A stretch of 64,000 bases of DNA, from positions 1-64,000 of the forward strand of contig CACEKE010000003.1 of the NCBI GenBank assembly GCA_902560075.1, read 5' to 3'. Under the pieces are notes generated by a model. It saw only the letters and a program-made list of their open reading frames with translations. It had not been told where the DNA came from and made no database searches. Of the stretch, positions 53,527 to 55,636 are shown one piece after another. Each line of letters starts with the position of its first letter. Within the stretch, counting starts at the first letter, position 1. Source of the DNA: an uncultured Pelagibacteraceae bacterium. Lineage in GTDB: Bacteria > Pseudomonadota > Alphaproteobacteria > Pelagibacterales > Pelagibacteraceae. The position numbers were made by a program, and so were the translations under genes.

Positions 53527-54456
53527 ATGAAAATTTTAGGTATAGGTAATGCTATTGTAGATGTAATTTGTAAAGTTGATGAAGATTTCTTAGATAAGAA
53601 TAAACTTACAAAAAGCACGATGAAATTAATTTTTGATGAAAAAGAATTCAAAAATTTGTTATCAAATTTAAAAATTGAAAAGACTGTGTCTGGTGGTTCT
53701 GTAGCCAATTCTGTAGTAGGTTTATCTCAACTTGGAAATAAAGTTGGTTTTATTGGAAAAGTTTGTGACGACGATCTAGGGGCTAAATATGAGGAAGGTT
53801 TAAAAAATGAAAATGTTGAGTATTTTTACTCAAAAAAAAAAGAGGAGTTGCCTACTGGAACTTGTTTAATACTTGTAACACCTGACTCAGAGAGAACAAT
53901 GTGCACATTTTTAGGAACTGCAGGTAAAATAAATGAAAATGATGTTAATTCTGATATTATTACAAATAGTGAAGTAATTCTTTTAGAGGGATATCTTTGG
54001 GACGAAGGCGACCCGAAAAAAGCTTTTGATAAAGCTATAAGTAGTGCAAAAAAAGTTGCTATGTCTTTATCTGATCAATTTTGCGTTGATAGACATAAAC
54101 CTCATTTTCTTGATCTAGTAAAAAATAAACTTGATATAACATTTGCTAATGAACAAGAAATATTATCTTTGATTGACGCTAAAAGCTTCGATGATGTAAT
54201 TAGCTTTGGTAAAGAACTTGGAAAAATTATTGTAGTGACCAGAGGGGACAAAGGGGCAATAGCTATAAAAGGTAATGAGGTTTCTGAATGCGGAATTAAA
54301 GAAGGTTTAAAGGTTGTGGATTTAACTGGAGCTGGAGATCTTTTTGCAGCAGGTTTTCTTCATGGTTACATAAATAACTTATCTTTAAAGGATAGTTTAG
54401 AAAAAGGGACAGAAATGTCTGCAAAAGTGATCCAGCAGATTGGGGCTAGACTATAG
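53527..54456 (+). CDS. PfkB-family sugar/nucleoside kinase (adenosine kinase-like)
   Basis: 309 residues of the ribokinase superfamily. The N-terminus MKILGIGNAIVDVICKVDE and the VSGGSVANSVVGLSQLG signature are typical of adenosine kinases. The catalytic C-terminal motif is VDLTGAGDLFAAGFLHG with the Asp base near 273. It likely phosphorylates adenosine or a related nucleoside, recovering material from SAM turnover. It follows nth by one base. The sugar or nucleoside specificity is inferred, not proven. Confidence 0.87.
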   Translation: MKILGIGNAIVDVICKVDEDFLDKNKLTKSTMKLIFDEKEFKNLLSNLKIEKTVSGGSVANSVVGLSQLGNKVGFIGKVCDDDLGAKYEEGLKNENVEYFYSKKKEELPTGTCLILVTPDSERTMCTFLGTAGKINENDVNSDIITNSEVILLEGYLWDEGDPKKAFDKAISSAKKVAMSLSDQFCVDRHKPHFLDLVKNKLDITFANEQEILSLIDAKSFDDVISFGKELGKIIVVTRGDKGAIAIKGNEVSECGIKEGLKVVDLTGAGDLFAAGFLHGYINNLSLKDSLEKGTEMSAKVIQQIGARL

Positions 54457-54462
54457 ATAGCT

Positions 54463-54585
54463 TTATTTTTTAATTCTTTTAAAACTTCCTTTGCCTTTTT
54501 TAGGTTTTATAACCTTTTGACTAAATTTTCTTGAAGTTAATGTCTTAGCAGTAAAATTCCTTCTTTTTTTAAATTTTATAACCAT
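54463..54585 (-). CDS. ArfA-like 40-residue basic protein (putative ribosome-rescue factor)
   Basis: A short frame from ATG 54585 to TAA 54463. The core NFTAKTLTSRKF is followed by VIKPKKGKGSFKR, which closely resembles the ArfA family core pattern (N..A..L....F..rVvk.KKGKGSYkR), including the KKGKGS hallmark. ArfA recruits RF2 to ribosomes stalled on non-stop mRNA in gamma- and betaproteobacteria. Here it lacks the long C-terminal tail of E. coli ArfA, as in processed or short forms. Its start overlaps the stop of the regulator gene upstream by 17 bases, so the two are co-transcribed. Assignment is from motif recognition only. Confidence 0.62.
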   Translation of the reverse strand: MVIKFKKRRNFTAKTLTSRKFSQKVIKPKKGKGSFKRIKK

Positions 54586-55138
54586 TATCAGTGCTTTTTA
54601 TAAATGTACTGTCATTAAAAAAATCCTTAATTTTTTTTCTAAGTCTATAAACATGTGTTTCGACTGTGTGTGTTTCAAGTTCAGAGGAATGTCCCCAAAC
54701 ATTTTTCTTTAAACTTGAAATAGATACTTCTTTGTTTGAATTTTTTATAAAAAATATAATTTCAGTTTCTTTTTGTGTAAGTTTAAGTTTTTTTTTACCT
54801 ATTTTTAAAGCCCTGGAATTTACGTCTAATTGATAATCATTTATGTTAATTTTAGATTGTGTAACAAAGTTTTTTTTAAGAAGAAATATATTAATATTTT
54901 CAATAAGATTGAAAACTTTAATAGGAAAATTAGATAAGATAATATTGTTATCTCCTTGAATCTCACTTATTTTATTCTCAGAAATAACAACAAAAGTTTT
55001 TTTTTTATCACTTATAATATTACTCAGTTCGAGTTCATCTAATGAACTTTGAAGCTCAAAATTTAATAAATCATTTATTTCATGTAAAATTTCATATAAT
55101 GTTGGAAGTTTGTATATTAGTACAATCGTTTTACTCAT
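54569..55138 (-). CDS. OmpR/PhoB-type DNA-binding protein with degenerate receiver
   Basis: 189 residues. The C-terminal half (about 95-189) is a winged helix: KLTQKETEIIFFI, a recognition region with THTVETHVYRLRKKI, and the wing STDNGYKI. The N-terminal half has a receiver-like fold length, but the acidic pair near residue 8 reads Tyr-Lys and the phosphoacceptor position reads VVISEN rather than an Asp strand end. It is therefore probably phosphorylation-independent. No histidine kinase is adjacent. It is divergent from the YkuD gene by 12 bases and overlaps the ArfA-like gene. Confidence 0.82.
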   Translation of the reverse strand: MSKTIVLIYKLPTLYEILHEINDLLNFELQSSLDELELSNIISDKKKTFVVISENKISEIQGDNNIILSNFPIKVFNLIENINIFLLKKNFVTQSKININDYQLDVNSRALKIGKKKLKLTQKETEIIFFIKNSNKEVSISSLKKNVWGHSSELETHTVETHVYRLRKKIKDFFNDSTFIKSTDNGYKI

Positions 55139-55150
55139 TGTTTAAACATT

Positions 55151-55636
55151 ATGATATTAAAATTAATAAATAAAGATACCTTAATAATTGATGAATTTAA
55201 ATTTAAGTGTTGCATTGGTAAAAATGGTTTAAAAACCAGCAAGATAGAGGGTGACAAAAGCACACCAAAAGGCAAGTTTGAGCTAGGAACTCTATATTGG
55301 AGAAAAGACAGAATAAATAAAATAGAGACAAGTCTAAATAAAAAAATAATAAAAAAAAATATGCGTTGGTGTAATGATATAAATCATTCAAATTACAATA
55401 AAGAGATTACAAATAGACGAATAAAATCTGAAAAATTATTCAGAAAAGATAACAAATATGATTGCTTTATTTTAATTAAATATAATTACAATAGGCCAAT
55501 TAAAAACAAGGGTAGTGCAATATTTCTGCATTTGACAAAAGACTATAAAAAAACTGCTGGATGTATAGCGGTCAATAAAAAAGATTTTTTTATAATTGCT
55601 AAAATATTAACTAAAAAAAGTAGAATTATAATTTAA
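55151..55636 (+). CDS. L,D-transpeptidase (YkuD) domain protein
   Basis: 161 residues. A YkuD fold is indicated by KSTPKGKFELG near 36-46 (start of the catalytic barrel) and FLHLTKDYKKTAGCIAV near 125-141, giving the His and nucleophile Cys of the HX(n)GC motif. There is no obvious signal peptide, unlike most cell-wall L,D-transpeptidases, though similar leaderless homologues exist. The usual Ser/Thr-His before GC reads TAGC, a mild deviation. It ends 4 bases inside the convergent yggS. Confidence 0.82.
   Translation: MILKLINKDTLIIDEFKFKCCIGKNGLKTSKIEGDKSTPKGKFELGTLYWRKDRINKIETSLNKKIIKKNMRWCNDINHSNYNKEITNRRIKSEKLFRKDNKYDCFILIKYNYNRPIKNKGSAIFLHLTKDYKKTAGCIAVNKKDFFIIAKILTKKSRIII

Follow-up and report, generated by a model that had tools for sequence, protein, structure and literature searches.

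E. coli ArfA frees stuck ribosomes. In its cryo-EM description the C-terminal part of the protein fills the empty mRNA tunnel, with residues 31-48, which include the KKGKGS core, lying inside that tunnel, and Leu19, Leu24 and Phe25 form a hydrophobic patch that holds RF2 by W319 (PMC5378476). A KH pair in the tail is reported in a second source, and is taken here as non-defining for the family; the same text describes an E. coli arfA gene in which an internal hairpin leads to a non-stop message and which also encodes an unstable hydrophobic tail, active ArfA appearing only upon failure of trans-translation (PMC8012679). The recorded range of the gene, as given in an mBio 2024 survey, is restricted to Gammaproteobacteria, part of the Betaproteobacteria and ten species in the Bacillus subtilis group, with arfA in 0 of 2,376 Alphaproteobacteria (PMC11633108), and a Life Science Alliance 2023 survey, which applied the Pfam ArfA model to annotated proteomes, lists ArfA as 'not present' in Alphaproteobacteria (PMC10070815). 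No report of ArfA in SAR11 cells was found in the open-licence literature, the alphaproteobacterial cases found there being those of phages: gp30 of pelagiphage HTVC027P (PMC12753301) and g10 of Citromicrobium phage RXM (PMC8953757) are named ArfA by their authors. In that literature ArfA occurs together with SAR11 or Pelagibacter only in PMC12753301.

The DNA studied here, called the window, is a whole stretch of 64,000 nucleotides from an uncultured Pelagibacteraceae bacterium (assembly GCA_902560075.1, contig CACEKE010000003.1, positions 1-64,000 of the forward strand). An earlier note made from the sequence alone had pointed to an ArfA-like frame of 40 codons at 54463-54585. The frame is real and lies on the minus strand, which had been left unstated; the plus strand over the same interval contains stops in the frame tried. 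Its translation is MVIKFKKRRNFTAKTLTSRKFSQKVIKPKKGKGSFKRIKK (40 residues, minus strand), in which the two quoted motifs, N-F-T-A-K-T-L and KKGKGS, are both present, and the 17-base overlap with a regulator gene is exact. The features of the locus are these:

54463..54585, minus strand: arfA-like gene, 40 aa, ATG start, TAA stop (frame reading, Pfam, PDB profile, conservation, selection)
54484..54501, minus strand: codons of the KKGKGS core, residues 29-34 (sequence and alignment)
54569..54585, minus strand: 17 bases shared by the arfA start and the end of the regulator gene (frame reading)
54569..55138, minus strand: regulator gene with a winged-helix domain (Trans_reg_C, 189 aa), immediately upstream of arfA (Pfam; 102 of 117 loci)
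53527..54456, plus strand: pfkB-family sugar kinase gene, convergent with arfA (Pfam; neighbour comparison)

The stops of arfA and of the convergent pfkB-family gene are 6 bases apart, and pfkB and the regulator served as markers of the empty site in genomes without arfA.

The window protein matches the Pfam ArfA family (PF03889) at 26.9 bits, against a cut-off of 25.5, and ArfA is the sole family returned at E <= 10. This score is barely above the cut-off, which 22 of the 84 Pfam-matching family genomes fail to reach. A six-frame PF03889 search of the window's genome gave a single match, this frame (E = 4.8e-6), and the same family found a match in E. coli only among 14 control genomes; an NCBIfam search of the window protein returned no match. 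A profile made from an alignment of 28 SAR11 copies, the SAR11 profile, was run against 177,635 distinct PDB sequences and gave 6 matches up to E = 10, every one of them ArfA (best 4e-6), the three displayed alignments all being gapless. The KKGKGS[YF].R core is present and aligned in the window protein, its placement in the tunnel coming from E. coli only. The ArfA identity proposed earlier is thus borne out by the PF03889 search and the PDB profile search. The host is alphaproteobacterial, as had been supposed, the closest of the named loci kept belonging to uncultured Pelagibacteraceae with 95 and 93% protein identity and the same neighbours. It was concluded with good confidence that the frame is a true ArfA of SAR11 (Pelagibacteraceae), which most likely binds non-stop ribosomes, places KKGKGS in the mRNA channel and recruits RF2. 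The gene belongs to the ArfA family, is under selection and keeps its synteny, and it is this family and context that point to the function.

Purifying selection acts on the arfA-like gene. From 46 disjoint pairs of host copies, pN/pS for the 28 core codons was 0.121, and for the 13 codons fixed by neither the search motif nor the scan pattern it was 0.226; in the two shifted frames the same pairs gave 1.2 and 2.5, where stops caused 77 and 240 codons to be skipped. Residues K30-G31-K32-G33-S34 are invariant across 117 distinct host loci (of loci with the same sequence around the gene, one was kept), an invariance partly imposed, because a search pattern and a motif selected the loci. The 117 do not include eight scanned loci that failed to match the motif; all eight read as clear ArfA frames, with KGKGS in seven and KGKGA in one.

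The gene is found throughout much of the window's family. PF03889 at E <= 1e-3 matched 84 of 118 family genomes, 62 of them above the cut-off, and the SAR11 profile found copies in 95 of the 118 (38 of 46 good genomes), comprising 85 canonical matches, one of which is a contig-end fragment, and 10 weak ones (22-26 bits), all from genus g5. PF03889 matches 119 of 197 genomes in the order sample and 10 of 385 in the class sample, three of the ten belonging to the window's family. Seven alphaproteobacterial genomes outside the family have an ArfA match (L032-L038), and two of these share one family (f123). Among named records, picked by the pattern PKKGKGS[FY], the best 80 of at least 382 relatives are titled Pelagibacteraceae, Candidatus Pelagibacter or Pelagibacterales, which places the window in SAR11. 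The expectation that ArfA would be unusual for the class agrees with the two surveys, which report none (PMC11633108, PMC10070815); one of them worked from annotated proteins and the other with nucleotide profiles, and either method may overlook a frame of some 40 codons in an AT-rich genome.

The regulator gene lies upstream in 102 of the 117 distinct host loci, and 91 of the 102 also have the convergent pfkB. The 15 loci without the regulator, in which some that end at a contig edge are counted together with the rest, divide into six with pfkB only and nine with neither. A likely arfA start within the end of the regulator gene is seen in 89 of the 102, 46 times as a four-base NTGA overlap; other starts lie within 5 bases of the regulator end (six loci) or farther from it (six), and one was not found. 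The start codon in these regulator loci is ATG in 66 and GTG or TTG in 35. The linked control that the earlier note read from the overlap therefore stands as a shared locus, 102 of 117 with 89 overlapping; this is linkage only, and some genera carry the gene elsewhere. Genera g9 and g7 (L006, L017, L073) have arfA behind another gene, again with a four-base overlap, ATGA; the one upstream protein scored from g9 matches the photolyase-related family DPRP and the one scored from g7 matches DUF4174. Overlaps of the start with upstream genes suggest translational coupling, through which arfA would be expressed with the upstream regulator.

Loss of the frame in close relatives that keep the adjacent genes, the outcome which the earlier note had set against its own reading, does occur in part, as absence of the whole gene with no decay. 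Six of 19 same-genus genomes in the family sample (G003, G017, G026, G035, G074, G097) gave no match with either the Pfam or the SAR11 profile. All six keep five neighbours (nth, pfkB, the regulator, ykuD and a PLP-binding gene), with a short gap between regulator and pfkB that holds no visible arfA remnant, and all six have tmRNA and SmpB. At least 20 same-genus genomes in the order sample, the six included, are without a Pfam match. On a pfkB protein tree made by a quick method, with 49 of 114 inner branches below 80% support and with changes counted on rows other than those of g5 and g9, three changes are needed for the six absences. The six clean absences and the three tree changes imply that these bacteria can do without the gene and that its loss, or gain, happened more than once.

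Relatives are also carried by viruses. A pattern scan of IMG/VR gave at least 200 loci encoding a relative of the SAR11 profile, from which the best 80, all distinct, were kept; 66 of these are short frames (<70 aa) and 14 lie inside longer proteins. The longer viral proteins (L171-L173, L180, L182, L184, L190, L198, L204, L226, L228, L230, L232, L235) measure 91-163 aa, some being clipped by contig ends. All eight different viral proteins scored pass the ArfA cut-off, and the two long ones among the eight match phrog_17747 as well, a phage family with no known function. For four low-GC viral loci the best match among phage records is a pelagiphage (4 of 4); locus L183 matches phage records in short tRNA stretches only (the best rows cover 3% of the query), and loci L196 and L173 are matched over at most 7%, best by roseophages. 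A cultured pelagiphage, HTVC034P, encodes as gp63 (MW273922, L265 35184-35309) the protein MKYKNILVKELHSRKYRNRIKRSKKGKGSFKRLKKVKAEGE, annotated as hypothetical, which scores 25.7 bits with ArfA, barely above the cut-off, and shares 53% identity with the window protein over 34 residues. The parts of HTVC010P, HTVC008M and Mosig that were read contain no such frame. A tblastn search of phage records with the 40-aa protein found no match, an uninformative outcome, since the low-complexity filter probably masks the Lys-rich query.

The closeness of host and viral forms bears on the origin of the gene. One viral core is identical to a host core at 26 of 28 residues, and a host/virus tree on these 28 columns, read without branch supports, contains nine host/virus switches (98 host and 47 viral rows; duplicates and viral or alphaproteobacterial cores off the simple pattern were left out). 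The window gene could be a recent pelagiphage gift, fixed downstream of a host regulator and serving phages rather than the cell, a reading favoured by that near-identical core, by the relatives in the best 80 of at least 200 viral loci and by the HTVC034P copy with its passing Pfam score. Against it, many lineages have the gene at one and the same host locus (the regulator being present in 102 of 117 loci), the host copies are under selection, and the direction of transfer between phage and host is not readable from 28 columns; a recent gift of this kind is considered unlikely. Why phages carry arfA is a testable question raised by these data.

Under the preferred reading, a cellular ArfA that works through RF2, the SAR11 protein would bind ribosomes stalled at the 3' end of stop-less mRNA, its Lys-rich KKGKGS tail would occupy the empty mRNA channel, and RF2, kept open by the N-terminal part of the protein, would cut the peptidyl-tRNA. 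Between the Asn and the Arg that follows GKGS the core aligns gap-free with E. coli ArfA (YhdL), N10 corresponding to E. coli N14. Of the E. coli hydrophobic patch the Phe25 position alone is kept, as Phe or Tyr, whereas Leu19 is replaced by Thr in the window and mostly by Asp or Glu in other SAR11 copies, and Leu24 by Lys in the window and by Lys or Arg across SAR11 copies. The KH pair is absent from the window protein, which ends before that position. Since the tunnel core and the Phe25 position are kept, RF2-dependent rescue is the best reading, and since Leu19 and Leu24 are replaced and the KH pair is absent, the contacts with RF2 must differ in detail; ribosome binding and RF2 recruitment by SAR11 ArfA are what the comparison points to. 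Two RF-1-domain proteins in the window's genome were read as RF1 and RF2, and its RF2 keeps W319, F217, RHTSF, the 213-217 strand and GGQ, with V198 as Ile. These kept residues are ordinary for RF2 and are not specific evidence.

The same substitutions, two of the three RF2-contacting patch residues being changed in a protein with a short tail, could instead mark an ArfA-derived gene that has lost RF2-dependent rescue and has some other ribosome role, for example recruitment of RF1 as well, or a phage-type modulation of translation. A homologue without GKGS in genus g5 and the frequency of relatives in viral contigs lean the same way. The unchanged K30-S34 in the 117 loci, though partly imposed, the KGKGS of seven of the eight loci outside the motif, and the ArfA-contacting residues of RF2, kept apart from one Val to Ile, weigh against such a loss, which is judged quite improbable. 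That the frame is a chance Lys-rich one in an AT-rich genome, as a short, Lys-rich frame overlapping another gene and scoring close to the cut-off might be, is countered by conservation, synteny and ArfA-specific PDB matches and ruled out by pN/pS and the conserved locus, leaving it a negligible probability.

A rescuing ArfA would work beside the trans-translation system, the window's genome having tmRNA, SmpB and RF2. Of the 118 genomes in the family sample, 95 gave a tmRNA (43 of the 46 good genomes) and 100 an SmpB (45 of the 46). ArfB (NF006718) is above its cut-off in 0 of the 118 family genomes, by a profile that 2 of 14 control genomes pass. The class sample has ArfB above the cut-off in 128 of 385 genomes, and in 0 of the 5 window-family genomes included; as just 128 of 385 pass, absence of ArfB is common and no proof of a swap. 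A strict exchange of ArfA for ArfB was rejected, as four of the seven non-family genomes with an ArfA match also have ArfB (G197, G342, G396, G449). How SAR11 cells manage without ArfB is a question opened by this distribution.

The control of the gene probably differs from that of E. coli arfA, which has a strong internal hairpin and a hydrophobic tail, neither of which is found in SAR11. In a hairpin test the E. coli control gave -24.3 kcal/mol (z -5.0), whereas 0 of 117 SAR11 loci were at or below -10 kcal/mol, with a mean best window of -4.3 and z below -2 in one locus of the 117. No terminator-like site occurs at 54200-55400, and an E. coli-type internal terminator or hairpin was rejected, none being found in the window region or in the 117 SAR11 loci. 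The tail after the core Arg is 1-14 residues long (median 3) in those 117 loci, and SAR11 ArfA is already the short form. With a stop codon in the message and with neither hairpin nor unstable tail, expression would not be gated by trans-translation; the E. coli gate is thus probably absent in SAR11, and control through the regulator operon likely replaces it. A natural ArfA without this gate makes the need for gating testable.

In genus g5 an ArfA-like microprotein without GKGS was observed (L250 2176-2274, in G005, and L251-L253 and L255-L260; example MKRNPIAKALRTPKFKKKVIKDKKKYNRKKVKKYF). GKGS is absent in all eight g5 genomes read, of the ten with a weak match, and the homologue sits elsewhere, behind an ABC ATPase gene in three of four loci examined, a gene that resembles lptB. 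One g5 copy without GKGS resembles DUF7230 (PF23876), scoring 27.0 bits, at that family's cut-off, whereas the window protein has no match to DUF7230 up to E = 10 and a search of its whole genome (G000) gave none. DUF7230 as a second protein across the family was rejected, with matches in 8 of 118 genomes, seven from g5 and one weak in g10; it is unnamed in the open-licence literature. A broader scheme can tentatively be drawn, and as a whole is possible rather than probable: SAR11 rescue would consist of tmRNA together with an ungated ArfA cotranslated with the regulator, repeatedly lost or moved and traded with pelagiphages, whose copies would free host ribosomes during infection, and the g5 form without GKGS would merge with DUF7230. 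If true, DUF7230, of unknown function, would be a branch of the ArfA family.

PMC12753301 describes SAR11 as the most abundant microorganisms of the sea, and from this abundance a large part of the bacteria in the ocean, and their phages with them, would have ArfA. Among known systems, ArfB (YaeJ) is also a backup of ribosome rescue but has the GGQ motif (PMC8012679), which is absent from the 40 residues of the window protein. BrfA of Bacillus, compared by description, is likewise small and RF2-dependent but probably of unrelated origin, and is made from a truncated message (PMC8012679). The phage ArfA proteins, HTVC027P gp30 and RXM g10, share the ArfA name and differ in being viral; 66 of the best 80 IMG/VR relatives are short like the SAR11 gene, and some viral forms sit in longer proteins. 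E. coli ArfA has 72 aa, against 40 in the window, and its gene (L266 4432-4650) has a similar layout, behind a regulator gene, zntR, and end-to-end with convergent mscL, but with neighbours that are different genes from those in SAR11. Beside these systems SAR11 holds a real and widespread ArfA lineage of different regulatory design, unreported by the two surveys.
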